NCBI GenBank assembly: GCA_900317905.1
Contig: ONIN01000013.1
Coordinates: 1 to 48,399, forward strand
Length of the DNA: 48,399 nt
Direction: 5' to 3'
Source of the DNA: an uncultured Eubacteriales bacterium
GTDB lineage: Bacteria > Bacillota > Clostridia > Oscillospirales > Oscillospiraceae
Part shown: piece by piece, positions 1 to 34,188 of the stretch
Layout: every line of letters begins with the position of its first letter
How positions within the stretch are numbered: position 1 is the first letter of the stretch
Made by a program: the position numbers and the translations under genes
The notes under the pieces: generated by a model
Told to the model about the DNA's origin: nothing
Database searches by the model: none
What the model saw: only the letters and a program-made list of their open reading frames with translations

Positions 1-528
1 GACAAGGGCCGCGGCTATGTGCCCGCGGACAAGAATAAGGGCGCGCAGCAGATCATCGGAACCATTCCGGTGGACTCCATCTACGCCCCGGTCCTGAAGG
101 TGAACTACACGGTGGAGAACACCCGTGTGGGAAACCAGACGGACTATGACAAGCTCACCATCGAGGTCTGGACCGACAAGACCACCACCGCGCGTGACGC
201 GCTGAGTCTCGGTGCCAAGATTCTCTGTGATCACTTCACGCTGTTCACCGATCTGTCCGACAGCATCGGCACCCGCAGCACCGTCGTCGAGCGGGAAGTC
301 CAGCAGACCGATTCCGTCCTGAAGATGACGATCGAAGAACTGGATCTCTCCGTGCGCAGCTTCAACTGCCTGAAGCGCGCCAATATCCACACCGTGGAAG
401 ATCTGACGACGAAGACCCAGGAAGAGATGATCAAGGTGCGCAACCTTGGCCGCAAGTCGCTGGAAGAGGTCGAGCACAAGCTCGCTACGATGGGTCTGTC
501 CCTCGCGAGTGACGACAGCCAGCAGTAA
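1..528 (+). CDS. rpoA: RNA polymerase alpha subunit, C-terminal part (5' end outside window)
   Basis: The frame is open from the first base, so the true start lies upstream. The visible 175 residues contain the end of the alpha N-terminal dimerisation domain (the VENTRVGxxTDYDKL motif) and then the complete C-terminal domain. The latter carries the helix-hairpin-helix motifs [13 protein letters not shown] and [12 protein letters not shown] that contact UP-element DNA and activators. It is followed 57 bases later by rplQ, the usual end of the ribosomal alpha operon. Family and context agree fully. Nothing odd is visible. Confidence 0.98.
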
Positions 529-927: not shown

Positions 928-948
928 TCGAATTCACACAAACAAAAA

Positions 949-979
949 TGCTCTATCCAGATCGGATAGAGCATTTTTT
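949..979 (+). terminator. Intrinsic terminator of the rpoA-rplQ operon
   Basis: There is a perfect 10-bp stem, TGCTCTATCC (949-958) against GGATAGAGCA (964-973), with a 5-base loop. It is followed by T6 (974-979) and preceded by an A-run, so it could also work on the other strand. Confidence 0.92.
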
Positions 980-1098
980 GTTGTTCAGTTTAGGATTCGG
1001 ACTCGAGCGGCAAGAATCTGTCCGAATCCGGCCGTAATCCCGGAGTTGCTTTCCCTCATCGAAAAACGCAGATTTGTGCATCTTTTTGTCTGAAATAC

Positions 1099-1127
1099 TT
1101 GAATTATTTGAAGAAATAGACTAGAAT
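1099..1127 (+). promoter_or_regulatory. Sigma-A-like promoter for the E2-fold/acyl-CoA ligase pair
   Basis: TTGAAT (1099-1104) and TAGAAT (1122-1127) are separated by 17 bases in a locally AT-rich stretch. The predicted transcription start is near 1134, about 50 bases before the ATG at 1186. Confidence 0.65.
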
Positions 1128-1185
1128 AGCATAGCTTTAATATTTTTCTAATTTTTTGAGCAGGAATCTGAGAGGAGAACGCGAC

Positions 1186-17058: not shown

Positions 17059-17087
17059 GCTGCTGAAGATAAGCAGCTCAGAGTTTT
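17045..17087. terminator. Bidirectional terminator between the FAD genes and tupC
   Basis: There is a perfect 10-bp stem, CTGAGCTGCT (17055-17064) against AGCAGCTCAG (17072-17081). TTTT (17083-17086) lies on the plus side and an A-run (17045-17052) serves as the T-tract for the convergent tup operon. Confidence 0.85.
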
Positions 17088-17739
17088 AGATTCCGTAAAA
17101 TTCAAGGAATTGTCTGGTTTTTTCTTCCTTCGGGGTGTTGAGGAGCGTCTCGGCGCTGCCCTGTTCGATCAGCTTTCCGCTCTCCAGATACAGCACCTCG
17201 TCAGCGATCCGCCGCGCCTGCTGGAGACTGTGGGTGATCAGCAGCACCGCGCAGCCGGTGTCCTTGGCGTAGCTTTCGATCAGCTTTTCGGCCGCGAGGG
17301 TGGAGGCCATGTCCATGGCGGCGGTGGGCTCGTCGAGGATCAGCAGATCGTAGCTCCCCAGCAGACTCCGCGCCAAAGCCATTTTCGCCGTCTCACCGCC
17401 GGAGAGCCGTTTTGCCCGGCTGCGGCGGAGGGACATGAGACCCAATGCATCCAGCAGTTCGGTGCGCTTCTTTTCATCTCCGCCGTTCAGTGCGAGATTC
17501 TGTTCCACGGTCATCCGGAAGGCAAAGGGCTTTTGAGGCAGGTACCCCACCCGGCCGGAGATAACAGCGCGCTTGCTGTCGTCGGCGGTCTCGATCCCGG
17601 CGAGGATCTTCGCCATGGTGGATTTTCCGCTGCCATTGGCGCCGATGACCGCGGTGACCGCACCGGACTGCAGCGTGATCGCCGGCAGGTCCAGTACCTT
17701 CCGTCCGGCGTAGGTCCTTGCAAAGGCGTTGGTTTTCAT
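17086..17739 (-). CDS. tupC: Tungstate ABC transporter ATP-binding protein
   Basis: This 217-residue ABC ATPase has Walker A GANGSGKST (about 37-45), signature LSGGETAKMALARSL (about 112), Walker B LLILDEPTAAMD and the H-loop ITHS. It lacks the C-terminal MOP/TOBE domain present in the ModC of this window, which fits TupC. I chose the ATG at 17739 because AGGAGG (plus-strand 17748-17753) lies upstream; a much longer frame beyond it has no support. It overlaps the tupB stop by 3 bases, the usual coupled arrangement. Confidence 0.88.
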   Translation of the reverse strand: MKTNAFARTYAGRKVLDLPAITLQSGAVTAVIGANGSGKSTMAKILAGIETADDSKRAVISGRVGYLPQKPFAFRMTVEQNLALNGGDEKKRTELLDALGLMSLRRSRAKRLSGGETAKMALARSLLGSYDLLILDEPTAAMDMASTLAAEKLIESYAKDTGCAVLLITHSLQQARRIADEVLYLESGKLIEQGSAETLLNTPKEEKTRQFLEFYGI

Positions 17740-18422
17740 CGGTGGAACCTCCTTTGCATCACGCTCAGCACGATGTTCACCAGCAGCGACAGCACCATCA
17801 GGATCAGCCCCAGTGCGATGCCGAGGGAGAAGTTGCCCCGGTTGGTGTACTGCATGATGGCGGTGGTCATCACGTTGGTTTTCCAGGCGATGGCGCCGCC
17901 CACCATGCTCACCGCGCCAACCTCCGCGATGGCTCTGGCGAAGGCCAGCAGGTAGACCGTGATGATGGGGTAGAGGCATTCGTTCACCAGGAGCACAAAC
18001 CGTTTCCAGCCGCTGAAGCCGAGGCCTTTTGCTGTCTCTCTCAGCGGCGGCGCCAGCTCGGCGGCGTAGGTCTCCATGTTGCCGATGACGATGGGGGTGA
18101 TCAGCACCACCTGGGCCAGGATCATGATCGGCACGGTGAACAGGAGTTTCAGGTGTCGGAAGGGCCCCACACCGGAGAACAGCAGATAAAACAGCAGACC
18201 GCAGACCACCGGCGGCATGCCCATCAGCGTCCGGTTGAGTACCACGAGGGCGCCCCGACCGCGAAATCGGCAGGCGCCCAGCCAGATCCCCAGCGGCACC
18301 CCCAGCAGCAGCGCGATGACGGAGCTGGTGAGACTGACCCTGGCGGTGGTGGAGAGGATGTTCACCAGCTCCCGATCCGCGGTCAGGATCAGCTGTATGG
18401 CTTTTTGAATGGCAGAACCCAT
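17736..18422 (-). CDS. tupB: Tungstate ABC transporter permease
   Basis: This 228-residue integral membrane permease has about five to six hydrophobic segments and the ABC permease loop (ETAKGLGFSGWKRFVLL ... ARAIAEVGAVSMVGG) that contacts the ATPase. The EVGAVSMVGG version is typical for TupB/WtpB. It lies between tupC and tupA. About 90 bases with a perfect palindrome separate it from tupA, which may lower its expression relative to the binding protein. Confidence 0.9.
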   Translation of the reverse strand: MGSAIQKAIQLILTADRELVNILSTTARVSLTSSVIALLLGVPLGIWLGACRFRGRGALVVLNRTLMGMPPVVCGLLFYLLFSGVGPFRHLKLLFTVPIMILAQVVLITPIVIGNMETYAAELAPPLRETAKGLGFSGWKRFVLLVNECLYPIITVYLLAFARAIAEVGAVSMVGGAIAWKTNVMTTAIMQYTNRGNFSLGIALGLILMVLSLLVNIVLSVMQRRFHR

Positions 18423-18514: not shown

Positions 18515-19525
18515 TCAATCCATGACGCCGTCGTTGGCAACGAAGGTGAGGAAGGTGGCCTTATCGGTGAGGATGTAGGCGCCCATCTCCTCGGCCATCA
18601 CCAGGCATGCGCCCATGCCGGCATTGGCGGAGGTGTACCAATCGGTGTAAGCCTCGAAGGTGGTGGGATCGTCGGTGATGCCCAGGCTCTCGGGCCAGAG
18701 GGAGAGCTCCTTGGTGTGGGTGCCGGAGCCGTCACCACGGCTGACGAAGGGATACTTGCCGTCGGCGATTGCGGCGAAGGCGGTGAGGACATCCTCAGCG
18801 TCCTTCACGCCCGCGGGATCCTCCTGGGGACCGCAGAGGACGAAGTAGTTGTACATGTAGGTCATGCGCTCGGACTCCATGCCGTCCAGAACGTAGGCGA
18901 AGCCCTCCTCAACGAAGGCCTCCTCCTGGGCCTTGGCGTGAACCAGGATCAGGTCGGCATTGCCCATCTTGGCATTGGCGATGGCCTTGCCGGTACCGGC
19001 GGAGAAGACTTCGACTTCATAGCCGTACTTTTCCTCGAACATGGGCAGCAGGTAGCCCAGCAGGCCGGAGTCGTTGACGCTGGTGGTGGTGCTCAGACGG
19101 ATGAGCTTGGTCTCTTCGGTGGCCTCGGGGATCTCGGCAGTGGAGATCGGGCGGTCCTCCTTGAGATAGAACAGGTACTCGCCATACTCAGCATAGCCGT
19201 ACTCGGCGGCGGCAGCCTCGCCCTCCTCGCTCAGCAGCCAGTTGATCAGCGCGGCGGCGCCCACGGTGTTCAGCTGCACGTCAGAGACGGCGTTCCCGTC
19301 CGCATCCACAAAGGGGGCATCGGGATTGACCGCCATGAGGGTGTAGTTGTTGATCATGCTGTCGTCGGCCTCTTTGAGGATGACGGTGTTCAGCGTGACC
19401 TCCGGTGCGGCGGCTTCTTCCGCAGCGGAGCCATTGGGCCCCTCGGAATCGATCTTCGATGATGCGCAGGCGCACAGGGCAAAGACCATGACCAGCACCA
19501 GAAGCAGGGATAGATACTTCTTCAT
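18515..19525 (-). CDS. tupA: Tungstate-binding lipoprotein TupA, apparently circularly permuted
   Basis: This 336-residue protein has a lipoprotein signal peptide (residues 1-20, lipobox LCAC with C20). The TupA fingerprint TTTSVNDSGLL is present but starts only at about residue 147; it normally sits close to the mature N-terminus. The segment normally found at the C-terminal end (NPYxVIAVNP, then a WL.S.EGQ helix and a YGEPLF-type end) is here at residues 47-122: NNYTLMAVNP, ALINWLLSEEGEAAAAEYG, YGEYLFYL. The protein instead ends at DKATFLTFVANDGVMD, where ordinary TupA continues into that segment. All parts of the fold are present once, in permuted order. Start chosen: ATG 19525 with GGAGG upstream. 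Confidence 0.9.
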   Translation of the reverse strand: MKKYLSLLLVLVMVFALCACASSKIDSEGPNGSAAEEAAAPEVTLNTVILKEADDSMINNYTLMAVNPDAPFVDADGNAVSDVQLNTVGAAALINWLLSEEGEAAAAEYGYAEYGEYLFYLKEDRPISTAEIPEATEETKLIRLSTTTSVNDSGLLGYLLPMFEEKYGYEVEVFSAGTGKAIANAKMGNADLILVHAKAQEEAFVEEGFAYVLDGMESERMTYMYNYFVLCGPQEDPAGVKDAEDVLTAFAAIADGKYPFVSRGDGSGTHTKELSLWPESLGITDDPTTFEAYTDWYTSANAGMGACLVMAEEMGAYILTDKATFLTFVANDGVMD

Positions 19526-19935: not shown

Positions 19936-22900
19936 ATGACCAATTACTGCGGCTATATGGGCAAGGTCGTGCTGCTGGATCTTGACGCCAAAACCACAAC
20001 GGAGTATCCTTGGAGTGACCGGGATCGAGAGCTGTACATCGGCGGCAAGGCCATGGCCTCCAAAGTCCTGTACGACAACCTGACCGGAACCGAGGATCCC
20101 TTCGGGCCGGAAAATCTGATCGTCATTTCCACCGGCCCGCTGACCGGCACCGGCGCCCCCAGCTCCAACCGATTTGACATCTCGGCGCTGAGCCCGCTGA
20201 CGGGCATCACCACCAGCTCCAACTGCGGCGGCAACTTCGGCCACTATCTGAAGAAGGCCGGCATGGATGCGCTGATCATCCGGGGCAGGTGTGAGTCGCC
20301 CACCTGGATCGAGATCGAGAACGACAAGTTCACCTTCCATGACGCCTCAGATCTTTGGGGCATGCGTACCACGGAGACCCAGACGGCCATGCAGGCGATC
20401 CTGGACGAGGCTGCGGGGAAGACGGTGCGCGGCGGCATGCTGGCCATCGGCCCCGCAGGTGAAAACCTGGTTCGTTACGCCTGCGTCATGTCCGGCGAGC
20501 GCGCGGCAGGACGCGGCGGCGTGGGTGCGGTCTTCGGCAGCAAGAACATCAAGGGTATGACCGTCACCGGCACGGCCATGGCCTCCGTCCACGACAAGGA
20601 CAAGACCGGCGCCTTCCACAAAAAGTGGGTCAATAAGATTCGGAACCACCCCATCACCGGCGAGCGGCTTCCGAAGGAGGGCACGGCGACGCTGTTGAAT
20701 CCCATGAACGACCACAGCATCCTGGCCTCCCACAACTTCGAGTACGGCACCTACGAGTACCACGACGACATCAGCGGCGAGACCCTGGCCAACACCCTCC
20801 ATGTGGGCAACAACGGCTGTCTCACCTGCCCGATCCGCTGCTCCCGAAGAGTGCCGGTGGACGGCAAGATCGTCAAGGGCCCGGAGCTGGAGACCCTGGG
20901 TCTGCTGGGCAACAACATCGACAACAACAACCTGCAGCAGATCTGCGACTGGAACTACACCCTCGACGAGCTGGGGCTGGACACCATCTCCGCCGCCGGC
21001 ACCGTGGCCTGGGCTATGGAGGCCAACGAGAAGGGCATCTGGAGCTGCGGCCTGGAGTTCGGCAAGACCGAGAACGTCAACCAGATCTTCGAGGATATCG
21101 CCTTCCGAAGAGGCGTGGGCAACGAGCTGGCCGAGGGCAGCAAGCGCCTGAGTGAGAAATACGGCGGCACGGAGTTCGCCATCCAGTCCAAGGGCATGGA
21201 GCTGTCCGCCTACGAGCCCCGCCACGCGGTGGGCCAGGGCCTGGGCTATGCGGTCTCCAACCGCGGCGGCTGCCACCTGAACGGCGGCTATCTGGTGGTG
21301 CTGGAGGGCCTCGGCATGAACGTCAACGGCCTTAAGACCGGGGCGAAGGCCGACCTGTGCATGTTCATGCAGGATCTGATGGAGAGCGTCTCCATGGGCG
21401 GCCAGTGCCTGTTCACCTCCTTCGCGGTGTTCCCTGGCTTTACGGTGGAGGGGCACAAGAAGTGGTACAACCGGATCATCAACGCGGTGGTGCCCTTTGT
21501 GGGGCCCTTTGTCCGCATCCTCAACCGGTTCCCGGAGATCGCCTGCTTCCATCTGCCGCTGGTGCCGTATTCTTACGAATACCCGAACATCGTCGGCATG
21601 AAGATGACCCTCGGAAAGCTGATTCGCGCCGGCGAGCGCAGCTACAACGTGGAGCGTGCGGTGAACGCCCGCTTCGGCGTCTCGGCGGAGAACGACAAGC
21701 TGCCGAAAAAGCTCACGGACGCGCTGCAGGATCCCAAGAATCCCAAGACTCGCGTTCCGCTAGAGAAAATGAAAAAAGTCTATTACCGCGCCAGAGGCTG
21801 GATGAAAAACGGCCTTCCCAGTGAAAAGAAGCTCAAGCGTCTCGGCATCCGGCACGGCAGTGTAGAAAAAAGAGAAGGGAGCAACATCATGAGTTTTCTG
21901 AGAAATGCCTACTATCGCGTGTATCAGTTCATCTTCAACATCGGCGCCCACTTCCTGTACTGGCGCAGACCCATCCAGGTCTCCGGCATCGGCAGCGCGG
22001 AGAAGATCCCGGAGATCCTCCGGAAAGAGGGCGTGAACAAGGCCCTGATCGTCACCGGCCCCAGCGTCGGCAAGCGCCTGGCGCCCATCGTTACCGCCGC
22101 TTTGGACAAAGCCGGCATCGGCTGGGTCATGTTCGCTGAGGTGGAGGCCAACCCCAAGGTCAGCACCGTGGAGAAGGCCCGCAGCATCTATGTGGAGAAC
22201 GGCTGCAACGGCTTCATTGCCATCGGCGGCGGCTCCCCCATGGACTGTGCCAAGGCTGCGGCTGCCCGCATCGTGCGGCCCAACAAATCCGTCGGCCAGA
22301 TGGGCGGCCTGCTGAAGGTTCTCAAGAAGCTGCCTCCCTTCGTTGCCGTGCCCACCACCTCCGGCACCGGCTCTGAGACCACCATCGCCGCCGTCATCAC
22401 CGACGATGAGACCCACCACAAGTATGCCGTCATGGATCTGCAGCTGGTGCCGAAGTACGCCGTGCTGGATCCTGAGATGACCCGCGGCCTGCCGCCGAAA
22501 ATCACCGCCGCCACCGGCATGGACGCGCTGACCCACGCCGTGGAAGCTTACGTCTGCTGGACCTACAACACCAAGGAGAGCCTCCAGTGCGCCGAGGAGG
22601 CCACCGTGGCTATCTTCAAGTATCTGGAGCGCGCCTATCAGAACGGCGATGACATGGAAGCCAGAACCGAGATGCTGATCGCCAGCTTCAAGGCCGGCTT
22701 CGCCTTCACCCGCGCCGGTGTCGGCAACGTCCACGCCATCGCCCACACCCTGGGCGGCCTGTACAACACCCCCCACGGTCTGGCCAACGCCGTCATCCTG
22801 CCCATCGTCCTGGAGGACTACGGCGAGGCGGTCTACCCGAGACTCAGCCGTCTGGCGGAGCTCACCGGCGTCTGCACCAGCGGCACTCAGGAGCAGAAGG

Positions 22901-23100
22901 CCAAGGCCTTCATCAAGGAGATCCGCGCCATGAACCAGCGCATGGACATTCCCACCGGCTTCGACCACATCCAGGAGAAGGACATCCCGCAGATGATCAC
23001 CTGGGCACTGAAGGAGGCCAACCCCTTCTATCCCGTGCCGGTCATCTACGACCGCGACCGCTGCAACAAGGTCATCCACCGCATCATCGACGAGGCCTGA
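19936..23100 (+). CDS. Tungsten aldehyde oxidoreductase fused to iron-containing alcohol dehydrogenase
   Basis: This is one open frame of 1054 residues. Residues 1-~640 are an AOR-family protein (tungsten-pterin plus one [4Fe-4S]): GGKAMASKVLYDNL, STGPLTGTGAPSSNRFD, cluster ligands C295-x2-C298-x3-C302 and C491, ending in the typical AOR tail RGWMKNGLPSEKKLKRLGI. Residues 652-1054 are a full type III Fe-dependent alcohol dehydrogenase with GGGSPMDCAK, TSGTGSETT, the metal ligands Asp and His in MDALTHAVEAY, and His in HAIAHTLGG and PHG. The ADH part begins with Met 652 (ATG 21889) preceded by AAGGGAG at normal spacing, and a TAG lies one base out of frame at 21863. So the fusion looks recent, and separate ADH could also be made. 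The pair could interconvert acid, aldehyde and alcohol using ferredoxin and NAD(P)H. It is adjacent and divergent to tupABC. Confidence 0.88.
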   Translation: MTNYCGYMGKVVLLDLDAKTTTEYPWSDRDRELYIGGKAMASKVLYDNLTGTEDPFGPENLIVISTGPLTGTGAPSSNRFDISALSPLTGITTSSNCGGNFGHYLKKAGMDALIIRGRCESPTWIEIENDKFTFHDASDLWGMRTTETQTAMQAILDEAAGKTVRGGMLAIGPAGENLVRYACVMSGERAAGRGGVGAVFGSKNIKGMTVTGTAMASVHDKDKTGAFHKKWVNKIRNHPITGERLPKEGTATLLNPMNDHSILASHNFEYGTYEYHDDISGETLANTLHVGNNGCLTCPIRCSRRVPVDGKIVKGPELETLGLLGNNIDNNNLQQICDWNYTLDELGLDTISAAGTVAWAMEANEKGIWSCGLEFGKTENVNQIFEDIAFRRGVGNELAEGSKRLSEKYGGTEFAIQSKGMELSAYEPRHAVGQGLGYAVSNRGGCHLNGGYLVVLEGLGMNVNGLKTGAKADLCMFMQDLMESVSMGGQCLFTSFAVFPGFTVEGHKKWYNRIINAVVPFVGPFVRILNRFPEIACFHLPLVPYSYEYPNIVGMKMTLGKLIRAGERSYNVERAVNARFGVSAENDKLPKKLTDALQDPKNPKTRVPLEKMKKVYYRARGWMKNGLPSEKKLKRLGIRHGSVEKREGSNIMSFLRNAYYRVYQFIFNIGAHFLYWRRPIQVSGIGSAEKIPEILRKEGVNKALIVTGPSVGKRLAPIVTAALDKAGIGWVMFAEVEANPKVSTVEKARSIYVENGCNGFIAIGGGSPMDCAKAAAARIVRPNKSVGQMGGLLKVLKKLPPFVAVPTTSGTGSETTIAAVITDDETHHKYAVMDLQLVPKYAVLDPEMTRGLPPKITAATGMDALTHAVEAYVCWTYNTKESLQCAEEATVAIFKYLERAYQNGDDMEARTEMLIASFKAGFAFTRAGVGNVHAIAHTLGGLYNTPHGLANAVILPIVLEDYGEAVYPRLSRLAELTGVCTSGTQEQKAKAFIKEIRAMNQRMDIPTGFDHIQEKDIPQMITWALKEANPFYPVPVIYDRDRCNKVIHRIIDEA

Positions 23101-24062: not shown

Positions 24063-24103
24063 AAATCCAAGCATCTTTTTAATACGCCTGTAATGGATTT
24101 CGA

Positions 24104-24192
24104 GCCTGTGCAGCCTAAGCCGATCTCGGTATGGCGGCAGGCCGTGTGCCCGGGCACACCGGGGCGCCGCAGGAAACGGCTGCGCCTTCCCA
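24104..24192 (+). promoter_or_regulatory. Candidate molybdenum-cofactor riboswitch, leader of redox operon 2
   Basis: A closing stem of GTGCAGCC (24108-24115) and GGCTGCGC (24178-24185, one G-U) encloses a stem GCGGC/GCCGC (24134-24138, 24166-24170) and a self-complementary hairpin GTGTGCCC/GGGCACAC (24144-24159). The 3' block GGAAACGGCTGCGCCTTCC (24172-24190) and a 5' GCCTAA-GC element recur almost exactly in the leader at 28021, which precedes the cofactor operon. CCTTC at its end could pair with the AAGGAGG ribosome site at 24222-24228, suggesting translational control. It is probably of the Moco RNA family by context; no covariance search was possible. Confidence 0.55.
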
Positions 24193-24235
24193 AGTGAAAA
24201 GAGATCTGACTTTTTCAGTCAAAGGAGGATTTTCT

Positions 24236-26554
24236 ATGGGCGAATGGAAGAAAACACAGTGCGGCATCTGCGGCGTCAGCTGCGGCCTCGAGGTGGAAGT
24301 GGAGGACGGGAAGATCATCTCCTCCAGACCCGATCCCGACAGCCCCCGCAGCCACGGCTACGCATGTCGCAAGGGCCGCAACAACAAGTATCTCGTGCAC
24401 CACGGCGACCGTCTGGATTACCCCATGAAGCGGGTCAACGGCGAGCTGGTTCGGATCAGCTGGGATCAGGCGATCCTGGAGATCGGCAGCAAGCTGCGCA
24501 GCATCGTCGATCAGTACGGCCCCCGCGCCGTCTGCGGCATCGGCGGTGCCTCCGGCGGCGGCCAGAGTGAACTGATCTTCCTCAAGGCTCTGATCAATGG
24601 CCTGGGCGGTCAGTACATTTTCAACCCCATCGGCTTTGAGTTTCTGGGCAACTGGTGGAGCCACGGCAAGATCTTCGGCGATCAGGTCTGCTTCACCGAG
24701 CCGGACGACGTGGGCGTGGAGACGCTGGTGCTCTGGGGCTCCAACTCCTTCGTCACCCACCAGATGTGCGACGCCAGAAAGAACATCCGCGACGCCGCTG
24801 AAAGCCCGGATCGGAAGCTGGTCGTTATCGACCCCCGCATGTCCGAGTCTGCCCGCATGGCGGATATCCACATTGCCAACCGTCCCGGCTCCGACGCCAT
24901 CATGCTCAAGGGCCTCATCGCTCTGATCCTCCGCAAGGGCTGGGAGAACAAAGAGTACTGCAAAAAGTACGTCAAGGATCTGGACAAGATCCGCCCCTGG
25001 TTCTACACCACGAATATTGAAGAATGTTTCCGCGTGGCGGGCGTCACCTACGAGGAGATGGAAAACCTCGCCAAGGTGCTCACCACCACCAAGTGGGGCT
25101 GCCATCAGGATCTGGGCATCTTCTGCGGCCGCCACAGCACCCTCTGCAGCTATCTGATCGTCATGCTGGAGGTCCTCTGCGGCGTGGCGCTGGTGCCCGG
25201 CGCTACCATCGTGCACGAAGCCTGGGCTGCCCGCGGCGAGACCATCCATGAGGACACCGATCCCAAGGTCTGGCGCACCCCGGTCACCAACCGCTTCCCG
25301 GTGCTGGAGACCTTCCCCTCCTGCGTCATGCCGGTGGAGATGCTCTCCGACCGCCCCGACCGCATCCGCGCCGCCATCCGCACCCTGGGCGCGCCCATGC
25401 GTTCCTATCCCGACTCCAAGCTGGTGGAGGAGGCCTTCAAGAGCCTCGACCTGCTGGTGGTCTGCGACATCGCCTGGACCGAGGACTGCGAGTACGCCGA
25501 TTACGTTCTGCCCGCCAAGAGCCAGCTGGAGCGCTATGAGTTCAACGCCTTCCAGATGAACTTCCCTGAATGCGTCATGTCCCTGCGTCCTCCCGTCATC
25601 GAGGAAAATATCGGAGAGCGCCGTGATATGTGCGACGTGTTCATCGAGATCATGAAGGTGGCCGGCGCCCTGCCGAAGCTGCCCAAGTGGTTCTACAAGG
25701 CCGGCGAGAAGGCCGTCGAGACCGGCGACCGCATGCCGTACCTCTTCGCGCTGCTGGCGTACCTCGGCGGCACCGGCATGAAGCATTATGCCATCCGCAC
25801 CGCCATCCTGGGCGAGACCCTTGGCAAGCCCATGGGCTCCGCCACCAAGGCTGTCTCCTGGGGCGCGCTGATGACTACCCCCATGGCTGCCGGACTCTCC
25901 GCCAAGGCAAAGAATCCGAAGCTGGGCTTCCATCCGATCATGGAGAAGATGCCTGCCATGGACAACTTCTGCGCCCTTGACGCCGCTTTTGAGCAGGTTT
26001 TGAAGCACCCCGAGGGCGCCGTGGTTGGCATCGCGGACAACGACAAGCCGGAGTCCTACCTCCTGCAGCACGTGAAGCACAAGGATCACAAGATCCACCT
26101 CTACTGCGACGAGATCTTCGAGGCTGTGATGAATCTGACTCCTGAAAAGGAGGCCGAGGCCATCACGCCCACGGAGGAGTTCCCCTTCATCATGTCCTCC
26201 GGCCGCCACACCGAGGACGGTCTGAACTCCATGACCCGCTACATGAAGAACATGAACCGTTACCACAGAAGCTACTACACCTTCCTCGTGAACCCCGACG
26301 ACGCGAAGGAGCTTGGCTTCGAGGACGGCCAGATGGTGCGCGTCACCACCAAAGGCGGCACCGCCGAGATCCCGGTAGAGATCACCTATCAGGTCAACCG
26401 CGGCTACATGATGTTCCCCCACCACTACGGCCTGAAGTTTGAAGGCGAGGTCGAGGGTGTCAGCGGCGGACATGTCTTCAACTGGGACAACATGGATGAG
26501 ATCACCGGCAACCCGTGCGTACGCTTCGTTCCCTGCCGGGTCGAGGCAGTCTGA
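24236..26554 (+). CDS. Mo/W-bis-MGD oxidoreductase, Ser-ligand type, paralogue 2
   Basis: This 772-residue paralogue matches the protein at 5134 along its whole length with nearly identical numbering. The [4Fe-4S] ligands are C9, C12, C16 and C44; the domains include VLWGSN and VIDPRMSESARMAD; and the metal-ligand position again reads W140-W141-S142-H143 in place of Sec/Cys-His. The N-terminus MGEWKKTQCGICGVSCG starts at the ATG 24236 with AAAGGAGGA upstream. An in-frame upstream ATG at 24131 lies inside the structured leader and is rejected. It is followed 14 bases later by a second HylA-like subunit but has no NuoE/F genes of its own. It may share those of redox operon 1 or use ferredoxin. 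The substrate is unknown. Confidence 0.88.
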   Translation: MGEWKKTQCGICGVSCGLEVEVEDGKIISSRPDPDSPRSHGYACRKGRNNKYLVHHGDRLDYPMKRVNGELVRISWDQAILEIGSKLRSIVDQYGPRAVCGIGGASGGGQSELIFLKALINGLGGQYIFNPIGFEFLGNWWSHGKIFGDQVCFTEPDDVGVETLVLWGSNSFVTHQMCDARKNIRDAAESPDRKLVVIDPRMSESARMADIHIANRPGSDAIMLKGLIALILRKGWENKEYCKKYVKDLDKIRPWFYTTNIEECFRVAGVTYEEMENLAKVLTTTKWGCHQDLGIFCGRHSTLCSYLIVMLEVLCGVALVPGATIVHEAWAARGETIHEDTDPKVWRTPVTNRFPVLETFPSCVMPVEMLSDRPDRIRAAIRTLGAPMRSYPDSKLVEEAFKSLDLLVVCDIAWTEDCEYADYVLPAKSQLERYEFNAFQMNFPECVMSLRPPVIEENIGERRDMCDVFIEIMKVAGALPKLPKWFYKAGEKAVETGDRMPYLFALLAYLGGTGMKHYAIRTAILGETLGKPMGSATKAVSWGALMTTPMAAGLSAKAKNPKLGFHPIMEKMPAMDNFCALDAAFEQVLKHPEGAVVGIADNDKPESYLLQHVKHKDHKIHLYCDEIFEAVMNLTPEKEAEAITPTEEFPFIMSSGRHTEDGLNSMTRYMKNMNRYHRSYYTFLVNPDDAKELGFEDGQMVRVTTKGGTAEIPVEITYQVNRGYMMFPHHYGLKFEGEVEGVSGGHVFNWDNMDEITGNPCVRFVPCRVEAV

Positions 26555-26568
26555 AGGAGGTGCTGAAC

Positions 26569-27981
26569 ATGGCAAATGTGAATCTGACCATCAACGGCAT
26601 TGCCGTTTCCGTCCCCAGCGGGACCACCATTCTGGACGCGGCCAAAGCCGCCGGCGTCCGCATCCCCACCCTCTGCGCCTATGAGGGCATGGGTCCCCAC
26701 GCCAGCTGCAGACTCTGCATCGTGAACGTGGCCGGCGATGACAAGGAAAAGCTCGCCTGCGCCGTCAAGGTCGCGGAGGGCATGGAAGTCACCACTGACA
26801 GCGAAGCGCTGTTTGAAAAGCGGAAAGCCACCCTCACTGAGATGTTCCGCCAGCACAAGGTGGACTGCCACCACTGCGCCCGCGTGGGCGGCTCCAGAAT
26901 CGAGGATCTGGATCCCTGGTTCTGTGAGAACTGCTTCTACTGCGACTGCCAGCGGGACGGCTTCTGCGAGCTGCAGGCCCTGGCGAGAGAGTTCGGTATC
27001 GGCCAGCTGCCCTTCGAGCCCCAGCAGAATGATTTCGCGGAGGACTGCTCCACCGACGTGATCCTCAGAGATCCCAACAAGTGCGTCAAGTGCCGCCGCT
27101 GCGTGGATGTCTGCAAGAACACCCAGGCTGTCGGCGTCCTCGGCATGGTGAAGACCGAAGCCGGCCAGACCGTCGGCGTCGCCACCGCTGCCACGCTGGC
27201 AGAGAGCGCCTGCATCCGCTGCGGCCGCTGCGTGGATGTATGTCCCACCGGCGCGGTGTATCTCAAGGAGCACAAGGACGAGCTGCCCTACTACGCCCAC
27301 GCCCGGAATGTCAAGACCGCGGCCCTGGTGGACGAGAGCGTCCTGCCGGAGCTCTCCAAGCTCTACGGCGGCGAGATCAGCCTCGAGCAGCTCAGCGGCG
27401 CCCTCCGGAAGATCGGCGTGGACGCTGTCTACGACGCGGAGGAAGTCCGCACCGTCATCGCCTTGGAGGTTGCCCAGAAGCTCTCCAAGCGGCGGAAAAA
27501 GGCTCCCGCCATCCTGGCTATGGATCCTGCCGCCAAGAAATTCCTGGAGGCCAATTTCGCCGACCGTAAGGCCGATTTCCTCTTCCCGGAGACCGCCCAG
27601 GTTCGCTTCGCGGAGCTGGCAAAAGGGAAGTTCGATAAGATCTACCGTCTCAGCGGCAAAAACGCCCTGGCCTACGAGGTCAAGGCCACCGGCTGCGCGG
27701 ACTACTTCTACAACGCCAGAGAGCTGTTCCGCGTCCTGAAGCGCACCGGCGCCAACCCGCTCAGAGCCGTTCCGGCGGCGCTGGATACCCTCGGCGTCGC
27801 GGCGGAGAAGACCGCCTACGAGCCCGTGCTCGCCAGCGTCTGCTGGCAGTTGGGCGGCGAGGCCGAGGCGATTACCCTCGACGTGAACGGCAAGGAAGTC
27901 AAGGCTGTGGTCTGCCATAATCCCGCGCAGGTGAAGAAGGCACTGGACGCCGACTGCGCCGTCATTCGCGTCAACGCTTGA
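26569..27981 (+). CDS. HylA-like subunit with H-cluster-less hydrogenase domain, paralogue 2
   Basis: This 470-residue paralogue of the protein at 9116 has the same order: [2Fe-2S] (C36, C47, C50, C64), His-Cys3 site H96/C100/C103/C133 with the Cys-rich insert (C119, C122, C125, C127), two [4Fe-4S] motifs (CVKCRRCVDVC, CIRCGRCVDVCP), then an H-domain remnant (EQLSGALRKIGVDAVYDAEEVR, YNARELFRVLKRTG, VVCHNPAQVKKALDADCAVIRVNA). H-cluster cysteines are missing and the chain stops before the CxGGC motif. C111 of paralogue 1 is not conserved, but the four insert cysteines are. ATG 26569 follows AAGGAGG. It would carry electrons for the oxidoreductase at 24236. Confidence 0.86.
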   Translation: MANVNLTINGIAVSVPSGTTILDAAKAAGVRIPTLCAYEGMGPHASCRLCIVNVAGDDKEKLACAVKVAEGMEVTTDSEALFEKRKATLTEMFRQHKVDCHHCARVGGSRIEDLDPWFCENCFYCDCQRDGFCELQALAREFGIGQLPFEPQQNDFAEDCSTDVILRDPNKCVKCRRCVDVCKNTQAVGVLGMVKTEAGQTVGVATAATLAESACIRCGRCVDVCPTGAVYLKEHKDELPYYAHARNVKTAALVDESVLPELSKLYGGEISLEQLSGALRKIGVDAVYDAEEVRTVIALEVAQKLSKRRKKAPAILAMDPAAKKFLEANFADRKADFLFPETAQVRFAELAKGKFDKIYRLSGKNALAYEVKATGCADYFYNARELFRVLKRTGANPLRAVPAALDTLGVAAEKTAYEPVLASVCWQLGGEAEAITLDVNGKEVKAVVCHNPAQVKKALDADCAVIRVNA

Positions 27982-28006
27982 CAAACGCCGCTTTCTGCGG
28001 CAAAAT
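27978..28006 (+). promoter_or_regulatory. Promoter of the cofactor/molybdate operon
   Basis: TTGACA (27978-27983, overlapping the previous stop codon) and CAAAAT (28001-28006) are separated by 17 bases. The start near 28013 leads directly into the structured leader. Confidence 0.65.
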
Positions 28007-28020
28007 AGAGAACGAAAAAT

Positions 28021-28105
28021 GTTTCCGATCCGCAGGGGCCTAAAGCATCCGCCATGGCCCTGCGGACGGGGTACAGACCGGAAACGGCTGCGCCTTCCTG
28101 TTTTG
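28021..28105 (+). promoter_or_regulatory. Candidate molybdenum-cofactor riboswitch, leader of the cofactor operon
   Basis: The outer stem is GTTTCCG (28021-28027) with CGGAAAC (28079-28085), and the inner stem is CCGCAGGG (28030-28037) with CCCTGCGG (28058-28065). The block GGAAACGGCTGCGCCTTCC (28080-28098) is shared with the leader at 24104. The 3' tail CCTGTTTTG (28097-28105) is exactly complementary to CAAAACAGG (28172-28180) inside the downstream terminator, so the two structures exclude each other. Context (11 Moco and molybdate genes) supports a Moco-type sensor. Confidence 0.6.
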
Positions 28106-28155
28106 AAAAGGAAACACTGTCTTTGCCTATAGGGGTATTCTACCCATATCGGAAC

Positions 28156-28192
28156 AGGGATGGTCTGTTTTCAAAACAGGCCATCCCTTTTT
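28156..28192 (+). terminator. Leader terminator (riboswitch expression platform) before the cofactor operon
   Basis: A 16-bp hairpin forms from AGGGATGG-T-CTGTTTT (28156-28171) pairing with AAAACAG-G-CCATCCCT (28173-28188), with one T-G pair and a minimal one-base loop in the strict model. T5 ends at 28192, 16 bases before the ATG at 28209. The right half can instead pair with the aptamer tail at 28097-28105. Confidence 0.75.
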
Positions 28193-28208
28193 GTTTTGAG
28201 GTTTTGTT

Positions 28209-29231
28209 ATGAAAGAGATCCGAACCGAAGAAGCCGTCGGCCATGTGCTGTGCCACGATATGACCCAGATCATCCCCGGGGTCACCAAGGACGCCCGCTT
28301 CCGCAAGGGGCATATCGTTCAGCCGGAGGACGTTCCGGTGCTGCTGAGCATGGGCAAGGAGACCCTGTTCGTCTGGGAAAAGAAGCCCGGCATCCTCCAC
28401 GAGGACGAGGCGGCGGACCGCCTGCGGGCCCTCTGTCAGGGAGCGCACATGCATGCTACCGCGCCGAAGGAGGGCAAGATCGAGCTGATTGCCGACATGG
28501 ACGGCCTGCTTTTGGTGGACGCGGATCGGCTGGAGCAGGTGAACGATCTGGAGCAGATCATGATCGCCACCCGCCACGGCAACACCCCGGTGAAGGCCGG
28601 GGACAAGCTGGCGGGGACCCGGGTCATCCCCCTGGTCATCGAGGAGGAAAAGCTTAACAGGGCTGCGGAGGTCTGCGGCGACAAGCCCCTTCTGGAGATC
28701 CGCCCCTATCAGCTGAAAACTGCCGGCCTCATCACCACCGGAAACGAGGTGGCCAAAGGCCGCATCGACGATGCCTTCACCCCGGTGATCCTCAAGAAGC
28801 TGGCACAGTACGGCATCGAGGTCACCCATCACTGCACCCCCGGCGACGATATGGAGGCCATCACCAAGGCTGCGCTGGAGTACCATGCGGCGGGTGTGGA
28901 CATGATCCTCTGCACCGGCGGCATGAGCGTGGATCCCGACGACCGCACCCCCGGCGCCATCAAGGCCACCGGCTGCGAGATTATTTCCTACGGTGCTCCG
29001 GTGCTGCCCGGCGCCATGTTCCTGCTGGGCTATTTCGACGACGGCACGCCCATCATGGGCCTCCCAGGCTGCGTCATGTATGCCAGAACCACGATTTTTG
29101 ATCTGATGCTGCCGCGGATCGCGGCGGGCGTCAAAGTTACGAAAAAGGATCTTGTCCGTCTGGGCCACGGCGGCCTCTGCCTTGGGTGTGGGGTCTGCAC
29201 CTGGCCCAACTGCGGCTTCGGAAAGGGATAA
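28209..29231 (+). CDS. Molybdopterin-binding domain protein with Cys-rich C-terminus
   Basis: This 340-residue protein has a MoCF_biosynth (MPT-binding) domain at about residues 170-320: AGLITTGNEVAKGRIDDAF, ILCTGGMSVDPDDRTPGAI, LPGAMFLLGYFDDGTPIMGLPGC. It is neither MogA nor MoeA in layout. The N-terminal 160 residues (VGHVLCHDMTQIIPG, DARFRKGHIVQPEDV) resemble the conserved extension of clostridial molybdopterin-binding proteins. The last residues contain LCLGCGVCTWPNC, four cysteines that could bind metal or form a persulfide. It is the first gene after the riboswitch-like leader, with GAGG 7 bases before the ATG. The role is probably cofactor assembly or delivery; the exact step is not known to me. 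Confidence 0.78.
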   Translation: MKEIRTEEAVGHVLCHDMTQIIPGVTKDARFRKGHIVQPEDVPVLLSMGKETLFVWEKKPGILHEDEAADRLRALCQGAHMHATAPKEGKIELIADMDGLLLVDADRLEQVNDLEQIMIATRHGNTPVKAGDKLAGTRVIPLVIEEEKLNRAAEVCGDKPLLEIRPYQLKTAGLITTGNEVAKGRIDDAFTPVILKKLAQYGIEVTHHCTPGDDMEAITKAALEYHAAGVDMILCTGGMSVDPDDRTPGAIKATGCEIISYGAPVLPGAMFLLGYFDDGTPIMGLPGCVMYARTTIFDLMLPRIAAGVKVTKKDLVRLGHGGLCLGCGVCTWPNCGFGKG

Positions 29232-29234
29232 GCC

Positions 29235-30443
29235 ATGGAGACCGGAATTTCTGTTGAAAGAGCCATCGAGCTGATTCATGCTTATACAAATCCCGTCGGC
29301 ACGGAGCAGATCCCGGCAATCAAAGCCCACGGCCGGGTGCTGGCGGCGGATGTGAGATCCCCCATGGACCAGCCGCCCTGGCCCAGATCGCCCCTGGACG
29401 GCTATGCGCTCCGATCCGAGGATACGAAAACCGTTCCGGTGAAGCTGAAGGTAGTGGACACCATCTACGCCGGCGGCTGGTCGGATAAGACCGTCGGAGC
29501 GGGGGAGTGCCTACGGCTCATGACCGGGGCACCGATCCCCGACGGCTGCGACTGCGTCATTCGTCAGGAGGACACCGACGGGGGAGCATCGGAGGTTTTG
29601 ATCTCGAAATCTCTGCGGCACTATGAAAACTACTGCTTCGCCGGCGAGGATTTTCAAGAGGGGGACGTTTTGCTCCCCTCCGGCACCCGGCTCAGCGGTA
29701 ACGCCTATGGGGTGCTGGCCGCGGCGGGCCTGCTGCGGGAGGATGAACTGCTGACGGTTTTCAAGCCTGTCCGCTGCGCCGTCCTCTGCACCGGGGACGA
29801 GCTGGTGCCGAACACCGTCCGCCCGCTTCCGAAGGGGAAGATCTATTCCTCCAACGAGGCGGTGCTGGCAGCCCGATTGCAGGAACTGGGAATCGAGATC
29901 ACCACCGTTCAGGGGGAGTTTTCCGATGATCCCAACGCGCTGGCTGACGCCATCGGTCAAGCTGCCAAGGATGCGGACGTGATCCTAACCACCGGCGGTG
30001 TCAGCGTTGGCGCCAAAGATATTCTGCATGAGACGCTGCCGCTTCTGAACGCGGAGCGGATCTTCTGGCGCGTCCGGCTCAAGCCCGGAACGCCGCTGAT
30101 GTTTTCGCTGTTTGAAGGAAAGCCGATCCTGAGCCTCTCCGGCAATCCCTTCGCCGCCAGCGCCACCTTTGAGCTGTTCGCAAGACCGCTGCTTGGGAAA
30201 CTGGCGGGATGCGCCGATCTGGAGGCCCGGATCGTGGAAGCAACCCTGGCTACCCCCTTCGAGAAATTCGGCAAGGGCAGGCGATTCGTCCGGGCGGTGC
30301 TGGAAAACGGCCGTGTCACCCTGCCGAAGGGGCACTCCTCGGGGCAGCTGGCCTCCTCTGTGGGCACCAACTGTCTGGCGGAGATCCCGCCGTCGGACGC
30401 TCCTATCGAGGCCGGAGCCATGGTGCGGGTGTGGATCCTATGA
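29235..30443 (+). CDS. moeA: Molybdopterin molybdenumtransferase MoeA (copy 3)
   Basis: This 402-residue MoeA has WPRSPLDGYALRS (about 50), MTGAPIPDGCDCVIRQED (about 96), LCTGDELVP (about 179), LTTGGVSVGAKD (about 250) and LSGNPFAA (about 295). It is divergent from copies 1 and 2, and has no added domain. It starts 3 bases after the MPT-binding protein and overlaps mobB by four bases. In this operon, together with ModABC, it is the natural candidate for the molybdenum-specific insertase, leaving the copies near tup for tungsten; that split is inference. Confidence 0.92.
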   Translation: METGISVERAIELIHAYTNPVGTEQIPAIKAHGRVLAADVRSPMDQPPWPRSPLDGYALRSEDTKTVPVKLKVVDTIYAGGWSDKTVGAGECLRLMTGAPIPDGCDCVIRQEDTDGGASEVLISKSLRHYENYCFAGEDFQEGDVLLPSGTRLSGNAYGVLAAAGLLREDELLTVFKPVRCAVLCTGDELVPNTVRPLPKGKIYSSNEAVLAARLQELGIEITTVQGEFSDDPNALADAIGQAAKDADVILTTGGVSVGAKDILHETLPLLNAERIFWRVRLKPGTPLMFSLFEGKPILSLSGNPFAASATFELFARPLLGKLAGCADLEARIVEATLATPFEKFGKGRRFVRAVLENGRVTLPKGHSSGQLASSVGTNCLAEIPPSDAPIEAGAMVRVWIL

Positions 30444-30940
30444 AACAAAAAATACTCGCCGTCTCCGGGGTGAAAAACTCCGGCAAGACGACGTTACTGG
30501 AACAGCTGATTCCGGCGCTGAATGCCCGGGGCCTGCGTGTGGCGATCGTCAAGCATGACGGCCACGGCTTCGCTGCCGATCGGGAGGGGACGGACACCTG
30601 CCGCCTTCTGCAGGCCGGGGCAATGGGCGCAGCGATCTTCGACGGGGAGAAGTTCCAGATGGTGAAATACGCCGCCGTCTCGGAAGAAAATCTGATCGCT
30701 TTTTACCCGGAGGCGGATCTCGTTCTGCTGGAGGGGTTCAAGTGGACAGACTACCCGAAGATCGAGCTGGTGCGAAAGGGCAACTCCGAAGCCCCGGCCT
30801 GCGATCCCGCGACGCTGATCGCGCTGGTGACGGACACGGAGGCCCGTGTGCCCGGCGTGCCCACCTTCGATTATTCGGAGATCGACGCCCTGGCGGATCA
30901 TATTGTGAATTGGCGAAAGGCGGGTGAGGCCGATGCATGA
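30440..30940 (+). CDS. mobB: Molybdopterin-guanine dinucleotide biosynthesis adapter MobB
   Basis: This 166-residue P-loop GTP-binding protein has Walker A GVKNSGKTT (about 10-18), KHDGHGF and DLVLLEGFKWTDYPKIELVR, all typical of MobB. It assists MobA in making MGD. The start ATG 30440 overlaps the moeA stop (ATGA); the longer upstream reading has no support. Its end overlaps moaA. The presence of both mobA and mobB agrees with bis-MGD enzymes in the window. Confidence 0.92.
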   Translation: MKQKILAVSGVKNSGKTTLLEQLIPALNARGLRVAIVKHDGHGFAADREGTDTCRLLQAGAMGAAIFDGEKFQMVKYAAVSEENLIAFYPEADLVLLEGFKWTDYPKIELVRKGNSEAPACDPATLIALVTDTEARVPGVPTFDYSEIDALADHIVNWRKAGEADA

Positions 30941-31901
30941 CGGATTCGGAAGAACCATCGACTATCTGCGCCTGTCCATCACCGACCGCTGCAGCCTTCG
31001 GTGCACCTACTGTATGCCGGAAGACGGCGTCCAGTGGCTGCCCCACGGGGAGATCCTGCGATATGAGGAGATCCTGCGGCTGGTTCGTGTGTTCGCCGCC
31101 ATCGGTGTAAAAAAGATCAAGATCACCGGCGGCGAGCCGCTGGTGCGAAAAGGCGTGTCAGGTCTGATCTCCGAGATCAAGGCCATCGACGGCATCGAGC
31201 AGGTCACCCTGACCACCAACGGCGTGGCGCTGAAGGAGCAGCTGCCGGATTTGCTCTCTGCCGGCATCGACGGCATCAACCTGAGCCTCGACACGCTGGA
31301 TCGGGCGCGATTCGCGGAAATCACGCGCAGAGACGCGCTGCCCCGGGTGCTGGAGGGATTGGAGACTGCCTGGAACGTGCCGGGCCTGAATCTGAAACTC
31401 AACTGCGTGGCCCAGGCGGGCAGAGCCTCCGACTGGGCGGCGCTGGCGGGACTGGCAAAAGAGCACAACATTGCCGTCCGGTTCATCGAGCCCATGCCCA
31501 TCGGTCTCGGAGGCGACATGGAGACCTGTACCGAGACAGACATCCGCGCCGTGCTGGAGACCGCTTATGGAACGCTTGAACCCTTTGACGCGGTGCTCGG
31601 CAACGGCCCGTCGAAGTATTTCACGCTACCGGATTTTCAGGGCAAAATCGGCTTCATCAGCGCCGTGAGCCATCAATTCTGCGACCAGTGCAACCGGGTG
31701 CGGCTTACGGCCACCGGATACTTGAAAACCTGCCTCCAGTACGACGTGGGCGCCGACCTGCGGCCGCTGCTGGCGGGATCGGACGAAGAACTTCAGGCGG
31801 CCATCAAGGCTGCCATTCAGAACAAACCCAAGGCGCACCGGTTTTCCGAAAAGACCGTGGAGAACCGGGAGGCGCACATCATGAGTCAGATCGGAGGATA
31901 A
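30933..31901 (+). CDS. moaA: GTP 3',8-cyclase MoaA
   Basis: This 322-residue radical SAM enzyme carries out the first step of molybdopterin synthesis. It has the N-terminal SAM cluster C-x3-C-x2-C in DRCSLRCTYCMP, the GGEPL motif, the second cluster FCDQCNRVRLTATGYLKTCL near residue 250, and the required C-terminal Gly-Gly. I prefer ATG 30933 (MHDGFGRTIDYLR), which fits the family N-terminus; an in-frame GTG at 30924 would add three residues and cannot be excluded. It overlaps mobB by 8 bases. MoaC is encoded further down the same operon. Confidence 0.95.
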   Translation: MHDGFGRTIDYLRLSITDRCSLRCTYCMPEDGVQWLPHGEILRYEEILRLVRVFAAIGVKKIKITGGEPLVRKGVSGLISEIKAIDGIEQVTLTTNGVALKEQLPDLLSAGIDGINLSLDTLDRARFAEITRRDALPRVLEGLETAWNVPGLNLKLNCVAQAGRASDWAALAGLAKEHNIAVRFIEPMPIGLGGDMETCTETDIRAVLETAYGTLEPFDAVLGNGPSKYFTLPDFQGKIGFISAVSHQFCDQCNRVRLTATGYLKTCLQYDVGADLRPLLAGSDEELQAAIKAAIQNKPKAHRFSEKTVENREAHIMSQIGG

Positions 31902-31905
31902 CGCC

Positions 31906-32340
31906 ATGGGAAACGTACTGGCGGTCTGCATCAGCCCGAAAAAGGGCACGGAAAAGAAAAACGTGGGCTCCGCCAAATTCATTGAGGACTGGGGCCTGGA
32001 GAATGACTCCCACGCAGGGAAATGGCACCGGCAGGTGTCTCTATTGAGTCACGACAAGGTGGAGGAATTTCGCGCCCGGGGCGCTGAGGTGGAGCACGGA
32101 GCCTTCGGAGAGAATCTGGTGGTCTCCGGCATCGACTTCCGCACCCTCCCGGTGGGCACCCACTTTGTCTGCAACGACGTGGAGCTGGAGCTCACCCAGA
32201 TCGGCAAGGAGTGCCACTCCGGCTGCGCGATCTATCAGAAGATGGGCGAATGCATCATGCCCCGTGAGGGCGTCTTCGCCAAGGTGATCCACGGCGGCAC
32301 CATCTCCGTGGGTGACACCCTGACCATTAAGGAGGACTGA
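31906..32340 (+). CDS. MOSC domain protein
   Basis: This 144-residue stand-alone MOSC domain (the C-terminal domain type of Moco sulfurases) has DSHAGKWHRQVSLLS, GAFGENLVVSGIDF and the conserved Cys region GKECHSGCAIYQKMGECIM. Such proteins bind Moco and may transfer sulfur or carry the cofactor to target enzymes. It starts 4 bases after moaA and ends 2 bases before mogA, so it is fully embedded in the cofactor operon. Confidence 0.9.
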   Translation: MGNVLAVCISPKKGTEKKNVGSAKFIEDWGLENDSHAGKWHRQVSLLSHDKVEEFRARGAEVEHGAFGENLVVSGIDFRTLPVGTHFVCNDVELELTQIGKECHSGCAIYQKMGECIMPREGVFAKVIHGGTISVGDTLTIKED

Positions 32341-32342
32341 AC

Positions 32343-32837
32343 ATGGCCTTTCGAGTTTTCATTTTGACCGCCAGTGACGCCGGTTCCAGAGGGGAGCGGG
32401 AGGACAAATCCGCCCCGGCGGCGCAGAAGCTTCTGGAGGAGGCCGGATACGAGATCGCGGGCTACTGCATGCTGCCGGACGACCGGGAGCAGCTGGCCGC
32501 AAAGATGCGCGAGGTCTGCGACAACGACCTTGCGGATCTGCTTGTGACCACCGGCGGCACCGGGTTCTCGCCCCGGGACTGCACCCCGGAGGCCACCGCC
32601 GATGTGACCGAGCGGGTCGTCCCCGGCATCCCCGAGGCCATGCGGTATTATTCTCTCCAGATCACGCCCCGCGCCATGCTCTCCCGCGCCTCTGCGGGCA
32701 TTCGGAAGGGCACCCTGATCGTGAATCTCCCCGGCAGTCCCAAGGCTGTGGCGGAGTGTCTGGAGTTCATTCTCCCCAGCCTGGAGCACGGGCTGGAGAT
32801 TCTCAGAGGTACCGCGCACAACTGCGCTCGGCAATAA
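32343..32837 (+). CDS. mogA: MogA/MoaB-type molybdopterin adenylyltransferase
   Basis: This 164-residue protein has LTASDAGSRGEREDKSAP (about 8-25), the TTGGTGFSPRDCTPEAT active-site loop (about 75-91) and NLPGSPKAVAECLEFILP. It would activate molybdopterin by adenylylation so that MoeA can insert the metal. MogA and MoaB cannot be told apart safely by sequence alone. It lies between the MOSC gene and modA, with modA starting 21 bases later. Confidence 0.9.
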   Translation: MAFRVFILTASDAGSRGEREDKSAPAAQKLLEEAGYEIAGYCMLPDDREQLAAKMREVCDNDLADLLVTTGGTGFSPRDCTPEATADVTERVVPGIPEAMRYYSLQITPRAMLSRASAGIRKGTLIVNLPGSPKAVAECLEFILPSLEHGLEILRGTAHNCARQ

Positions 32838-32858
32838 AAAAGAAAGGAAGTACCGAAC

Positions 32859-33707
32859 ATGAAGAAAATCCTCGCCCTGCTGCTGTGTGCAGCGATGCTG
32901 TTCGCCCTGGCGGCCTGCAGCAGCAAACCCGCCGCCGAGCCCGAAGGCTCCGAAGCCGCCGAAGAACCTGCCGCGGAGGAAGTGACCCTCTACGTCTTTG
33001 CCGCCGCCTCCATGACCGAGACGCTGGATCAGATCATCGAGCTCTACAAGGCTGTGGCGCCCAATGTGACCATCGTCCCCACCTATGATTCCTCCGGTAC
33101 CCTGAAGACCCAAATCCAGGAGGGCGCAGCCTGCGACATTTTCATCTCCGCCGCTCAGAAGCAGATGAATCAGCTGGATGCTGCCAAGGACGCCGAGGGC
33201 GGCAACGAGGAAGGCCTGGACTTCGTCCTCTCCGACACCCGCGTTGACCTGCTGGAGAACAAGGTCGTCCTGGCGGTTCCCGATGCCAACCCCAAGGGCA
33301 TCGAGACCTTCGCCGATCTCGGCACCGACAAGCTGAGCCTCCTGTGCATCGGCAACGAGGATGTGCCCGTTGGCGCTTACTCCGAGGAGATCCTCACCAA
33401 CCTGGGCATTCTGGAGACTCTGGAGCAGAGCGGTAAGCTGACCTACGGTTCCAACGTCAAGGAAGTCACTACCCAGGTCAAGGAGGGCACCGTGGACGCC
33501 GGCATCATCTATGCCACCGGTGCCTTCTCTGCCCAGCTCACCGTGGTCGACCAGGCCACCAGCGACATGTGCAAGCAGGTGATTTATCCCGCTGCAGTAT
33601 TGAACATCACCCAGAACGAGCAGGCTGCCCGCGACTTCCTGGCCTTCCTCCAGTCTGACGAGGCTATGGCCGTGTTTGAGGCTGTCGGCTTCGCCCCAGC
33701 TCCGTAA
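32859..33707 (+). CDS. modA: Molybdate-binding lipoprotein ModA
   Basis: This 282-residue protein has a lipoprotein signal peptide (FALAAC at about 15-20) and an Ala/Glu-rich linker. The ModA fold follows: [52 protein letters not shown]. It captures molybdate (often also tungstate) at the outer membrane face. The ribosome site AAGGAAG lies before ATG 32859. Order is ordinary here, unlike the permuted TupA. It is separated from modB by moaC. Confidence 0.94.
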
Positions 33708-33708
33708 T

Positions 33709-34188
33709 ATGAGCGACTTTACCCACTTCAACGAAACCGGACACGCCCACATGGTGGACGTGTCCGAGAAGGCAGCCACGGTGAGAACCGCCGTGGCTGC
33801 CGGCCGCGTCAAAATGAGCCGGGAGACCTTCGAGTTGGTGAAATCCGGCGGTATGAAGAAGGGTGACGTTCTGGGTACCGCCCAGATCGCGGGTATCATG
33901 GCGGCGAAAAAGACCTCTGAGCTCATCCCCATGTGCCACACCCTGCTGCTAAACGGCGTGGATCTCAGCTTTGACTTAAACGAAGCAGACTGCACTGTGG
34001 ACATCACCGCCACGGTCAAGTGCACCGGGGTCACCGGTGTGGAGATGGAGGCCCTCACAGCGGTCAGCGTCGCGGCCCTCACGGTTTACGACATGTGCAA
34101 GGCTGTCCAGAAGGACATGGAGATCACGGACATCCGCCTGCTGAAAAAGACCGGCGGCAAGTCCGGGGTATTTGAAAGAGCAGAGTAA
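33709..34188 (+). CDS. moaC: Cyclic pyranopterin monophosphate synthase MoaC
   Basis: This 159-residue enzyme has [15 protein letters not shown] at the start, then [22 protein letters not shown] and [23 protein letters not shown], the catalytic region with Lys and His residues. It works directly after MoaA. The ATG at 33709 lies one base after the modA stop, and its own stop shares bases with the modB ATG (TAATG at 34186-34190). Its insertion between modA and modB is unusual. Confidence 0.95.

Follow-up and report, generated by a model that had tools for sequence, protein, structure and literature searches.

The closest described systems to the gene analyzed here are the TupA proteins of Desulfovibrio alaskensis (5my5) and Geobacter (3lr1). 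In these linear proteins the TTTS loop comes directly after the point of chain entry, and the available portions of the literature propose T9-T11, S12, H59, R118, T124 and D170 as the oxyanion ligands of TupA (PMC5517513). Natural permutation of binding proteins is already known. TpMglB-2 (Tp0684) is described, in the accessible part of its report, as a glucose-binding lipoprotein of Type I with a permuted chain. Its authors regard the permuted topology as a possible adaptation to tethering that would ease tether strain on the ligand site, and leave open how permutation affects the binding protein of an importer (PMC4990184). Circular permutation has also been described between glycine-betaine- and molybdate-binding proteins, two-lobed binders whose relationship, as far as the available text goes, is structural, with <24% identity between families of different ligand (PMC2395249).

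The window, a stretch of 48,399 nucleotides, encodes a protein homologous to the TupAs of D. alaskensis and Geobacter over both parts of its chain, as an ordinary TupA would be, and shares with them the proposed ligand residues and an operon with TupB and TupC. Unlike them it carries its C-terminal part first, has two inserts relative to the alignment with a linear TupA profile, and has new ends that map to lobe B. Like TpMglB-2 it is a tethered binding protein of two lobes in which circular permutation has arisen naturally, although TpMglB-2 is a sugar binder of another fold type (PMC4990184) and the Pfam scan of permuted TupA brings up no sequence family common to the two. The Type I sugar-binding sequence family is not among the Pfam matches of permuted TupA at E up to 1, which are PBP_like_2, SBP_bac_11, SBP_bac_8 and PBP_like only. 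In contrast to the betaine and molybdate binders as described in the accessible text (PMC2395249), the permutation here separates members of a single family, and a linear sister has 58% identity across the N-terminal part. No report of a permuted TupA was found among the literature matches listed, in a search that mostly stopped short of subscription papers. The preferred reading, given a probability of about 0.88, is that the gene encodes the binding lipoprotein of a putative TupABC tungstate importer, and that its chain was circularly permuted a single time, in the class Clostridia or close to it.

The Permuted tupA Locus

The gene lies on the minus strand at the coordinates originally given for it, and the residue numbers first assigned to its parts are also correct (Table 1). 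A ggagg sequence precedes the start codon. The TupA core extends from T146 to about F328; PF12849 (PBP_like_2) matches residues 139-328 (profile 7-207 of 267) and NF041772 (TupA) matches residues 142-331 (profile 17-192 of 266). The NF041772 score of 129.7 bits is below the curated cut-off of 400, which the linear TupAs found in the order do not reach either (0 of 295 genomes above it, best 237.2 bits). Ahead of the core, SBP_bac_8 gives a weak, sub-threshold match at residues 52-111, near the end of that profile. Between the two parts of TupA, the spacing provided by the linker is constant in the BLAST coordinates of 120 permuted frames, duplicates included.

Table 1. Features of the window around the permuted tupA gene.
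Feature	Position	Strand	Basis
Permuted TupA gene, 336 aa	18515..19525	-	ATG at 19525, stop 18515-18517
Signal ending in lipobox-like LCAC (Cys 20), residues 1-20	19466..19525	-	Read from sequence
C-terminal part of TupA, now first, residues 44-121	19163..19396	-	Profile 182-248 of 251; identity to L113
Linker joining old C and N ends, residues 122-136	19118..19162	-	Profile search
N-terminal part of TupA, residues 137-328	18542..19117	-	Profile 3-179, 231.3 bits
TupB-like permease	17736..18422	-	NF041773 147.4 bits (cut-off 320); NF038017 179.9 (cut-off 100); PF00528
TupC-like ATPase	17086..17739	-	PF00005
Aldehyde ferredoxin oxidoreductase (AOR)-iron alcohol dehydrogenase fusion, divergent neighbor	19936..23100	+	PF02730, PF01314, PF00465 and PF25137 in one frame
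Moco/Tuco riboswitch RF01055	24086..24220	+	73.1 bits, gathering 36
Ordinary collinear ModA	32859..33707	+	TIGR01256, residues 49-276 = profile 1-216 of 217, 132.1 bits

Ligand Residues and Gene Neighborhood

Hand-mapping from the 5my5 alignment places the equivalents of the proposed ligands at T146-T148, S149 (the TTTS of residues 146-149), H196, R263, T269 and D321, all within the N-terminal part. Across 31 rows they show little or no variation. The divergent neighbor encodes 1054 aa comprising a complete aldehyde ferredoxin oxidoreductase and a complete iron alcohol dehydrogenase, a pairing that would turn an acid into an alcohol in two steps. The same fusion is present in three relatives (L001-L003) and the two enzymes are separate genes in two others (L008, L014); AOR matches occur in 24 of 80 related loci, most with flanks of 3 kb or less. 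MoeA, MobB, MoaA, MOSC, MoaB-like, ModA and ModB genes lie downstream of the riboswitch. The region 24086-34853 on the plus strand also holds formate-dehydrogenase-like and hydrogenase-like genes after the riboswitch. Tungsten imported by the system would serve the neighboring aldehyde oxidoreductase and the nearby cofactor genes. Tungstate is the likely ligand of permuted TupA in this window, because the same stretch also encodes a molybdate importer.

Could a TupA-like fold here bind a different ligand, such as molybdate or another anion? Tungstate binding is deduced from sequence and gene context, a divergent descendant has lost the ligand motifs, and much change has accumulated along the long stems of both the permuted TupA clade (0.7) and its TupB clade (1.29). 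Against this stand the conservation of the proposed tungstate ligands and of the TupBC operon, the tungsten-type enzyme gene on the opposite side, and the linear ModA that the window encodes separately, together with ModB, so that a change of ligand appears improbable.

Evidence for a Rotated Chain

A linear TupA profile of length 251 was built from 28 ordinary TupAs, leaving out L138, L140 and L146 (short or masked) and one paralog with a helix-turn-helix (HTH)-like appearance. Against this profile the window protein gives two domains in reversed order, the first of 35.1 bits (independent E 3.5e-7 at a fixed database size of one million) and the second of 231.3 bits. The front match, residues 44-121, bears out the original assignment of residues 47-122 to the C-terminal part of TupA; the failure to align that would have spoken against a permutation did not occur, and both parts are present once each, as first noted. 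When the sequence is rotated in silico, a single collinear match to profile 7-248 results, at 274.7 bits (full-sequence score 275.4). For twenty rotated controls with a shuffled C-terminal part the scores are 230.6-235.6 bits, and a rotated score so far above them excludes chance. The C-terminal part by itself scores 38.9 bits. The ModA of the same window serves as an internal control for order and is ordinary and collinear.

BLAST ranks L113 (genome G252) as the nearest linear relative, with 58.5% identity in the N-terminal part and 48.7% over 76 residues of the C-terminal part (E 2.8e-13). In phmmer searches of PDB the C-terminal stretch appears as a weak second domain of 3-6 bits, not significant alone, and in the TupA chains of PDB the matching stretch comes after the core. 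Since the C-terminal part precedes the N-terminal part, the protein is a permuted variant and not an ordinary TupA. Its new ends fall where the ordinary chain passes from the 'DRATYLSM' helix to the 'DLEIV' strand.

Might the front instead be an unrelated domain that merely resembles the C-terminal part, fused to a truncated TupA core? Pfam assigns only the core, as PBP_like_2, and the front part alone has no significant matches in PDB, which would suit such a fusion; the profile match with its shuffled controls, the identity to the linear relative and the equal lengths of structural elements in permuted and linear models make it very hard to sustain. Circular permutation of TupA, the central claim of the original prediction, is supported by the profile, the relatives, the predicted structure and the tree.

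Distribution of the Permuted Family

A pattern scan of genomes from 84,980 species found 278 relatives, of which 80 were kept. In all 80 the C-terminal part stands ahead of the N-terminal part in one frame. TupB lies downstream in 76, the other four stopping <=140 bases from a contig end, and a TupC match is present in 72. Classification against the linear profile, with frames sharing identical last 200 residues counted once, gives 147 distinct TupA-like frames (98 permuted, 43 linear, 6 fragments or other); the proposed search for proteins of the same order returned these 98 distinct permuted frames. That misjoined contigs produced this order is a negligible prospect: the window and the majority of its relatives are contigs assembled from metagenomes, but the order recurs in these 98 frames, in a single-contig genome of 4.31 Mb (G1124) and in Flavonifractor sp. 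An92 (L047), which is not titled as a metagenome-assembled genome, and its presence in independent genomes excludes an assembly artifact.

Of 300 genomes in the family of the window, 43 have a match at E 1e-20: the permuted form in 34, the linear form in 8 and a divergent permuted form in 1. None of the 43 holds both kinds (counts include L088 and L089). Another family yields 6 matching genomes out of 200, three permuted (one cut by a contig end) and three linear. In the class sample 49 of 391 genomes match and 4 are permuted, own genome included, while in a phylum draw of 398 genomes the own genome alone is permuted at E 1e-60 or better. The order sample has 8 of 295 genomes matching NF041772, with permuted genes in G000, G129, G299 and G142 and linear ones in G016, G099, G191 and G252. 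G142 also holds a second, divergent linear gene, and the two kinds can thus share a genome. Of 72,556 plasmid records 116 match, and in no record does a single place reach 80% coverage of the query; ten plasmid rows among the matches listed cover only residues 132-332, 59% of the query. Phages gave no match to permuted TupA. Matches to about residues 1-85 alone were set aside as common lipoprotein signals. Judged by sequence, many gut Clostridia carry permuted TupA, which is a widespread family of one origin and not one odd gene. Searches with collinear TupA detect only about 60% of the permuted protein, and tungsten uptake in gut Clostridia could consequently be missed or misnamed.

Origin and Inheritance

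A TupA tree of 65 rows in common register groups all 29 permuted rows as a single clade (bootstrap 100, SH-aLRT 100). This clade branches from within linear TupA, next to L113 together with L151 and L152, both of the latter being genes from outside the class. A tree of the N-terminal part only recovers the same permuted clade with SH-aLRT 99. The TupBs of 27 permuted loci likewise group in a single clade (100/100), apart from 24 TupBs of linear loci, and the single clades of both partners indicate that TupA and TupB were inherited together. Rows of different families are intermixed within the permuted TupA clade; transfer between lineages is likely. Against ten relatives pN is less than pS in the C-terminal part, the linker and the N-terminal part, and all three segments are under purifying selection.

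Tandem duplication followed by loss of the outer halves, the route originally suggested, may have given rise to the permutation. No doubled or fused intermediates occur among the 147 distinct TupA-like frames, and no second TupA copy was seen by eye in the long upstream extensions of four permuted loci (L036, L053, L054, L072). One candidate, a second TupA-like frame beside the linear TupA of L129, was rejected, as by eye it has an HTH-like start and is not permuted. Weaker rows resembling this second frame are present in G385 and G567.

The family offers a natural permutant with a linear sister, one origin, a co-inherited permease and many descendants, and lets the effects of permutation on folding, anchoring and docking be asked.

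Predicted Structure, Lobes and Tether

The predicted model of permuted TupA has a pLDDT of 91.7, and its structural elements are those of the linear relative in rotated order. The structural comparison first proposed holds in part: the front elements match the last five of the linear TupA model and equal them in length, with the C-terminal part placed by element order and not by superposition. VIA-align covers the N-terminal part only (model 98..295 on 3lr1 and 100..294 on 5my5), which aligns to 5my5 2..185.

The protein would fold as a normal two-lobed TupA with the fixed-length linker joining its old ends and a lobe B loop as the site of its new ones. Tungstate would be bound between the two lobes, and docking to the TupB dimer would proceed as usual. 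The lipid tether is predicted to leave lobe B instead of lobe A and would no longer immediately precede the TTTS ligand loop; the continuous lobe would now be lobe A and the interrupted one lobe B. Exchange of lobes is termed 'domain dislocation'. Tungstate sensors might also be built on a scaffold whose ends lie in lobe B.

What could such a rearrangement offer? By analogy, the tether-strain idea raised for TpMglB-2 fits permuted TupA. That permutation was selected because it moved the tether from the TTTS loop to lobe B, with TupB re-fitted to its partner, is a speculative and rather doubtful proposal, its re-fitting element drawn from the long stems of both partner clades. If true, permuted TupABC would give Gram-positive bacteria a mechanically distinct solution for their anchored binding proteins.

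A rough pattern finds a lipobox in 75 of 99 distinct permuted frames, an AxA site without a lipobox in 15 (one of which, L038, has a near-lipobox Cys), and other or cut signals in 9. The AxA signals without a lipobox cysteine include those of L004, L007, L010, L016, L017, L022, L023, L028 and L033, and with 15 of 99 frames of this kind the tether is not universal, a point that weighs against the tether-strain idea. One AxA copy without a lipobox (L031) shares an assembly with a lipobox copy (L018). Some linear TupA-like proteins have a domain ahead of the binding domain, SH3 in L136 and L139 and LysM in L115, indicating that anchoring varies; these domains are perhaps wall anchors.

Atypical Relatives

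L193 holds a lipoprotein-like frame (465-1565, plus strand) that is collinear with the permuted profile at 102 bits and in which, by eye, the TTTS, His and Arg ligand positions are lost. No TupB was seen beside it, and no close copy besides its own was found in 180 genomes. Two loci, L003 (at about 3001-3009) and L084, have an in-frame TAG as the third codon after the ATG of permuted TupA; their contigs are of equal length and they are probably one genome. The permuted TupA of L087 (G004) ends abruptly near residue 196, where it meets the 3' part of an opposite-strand alcohol dehydrogenase, a break due to either deletion or misassembly. A permuted TupA is also present in a record titled Coriobacteriales (L039), on a short contig of 4765 bases that is possibly misbinned.
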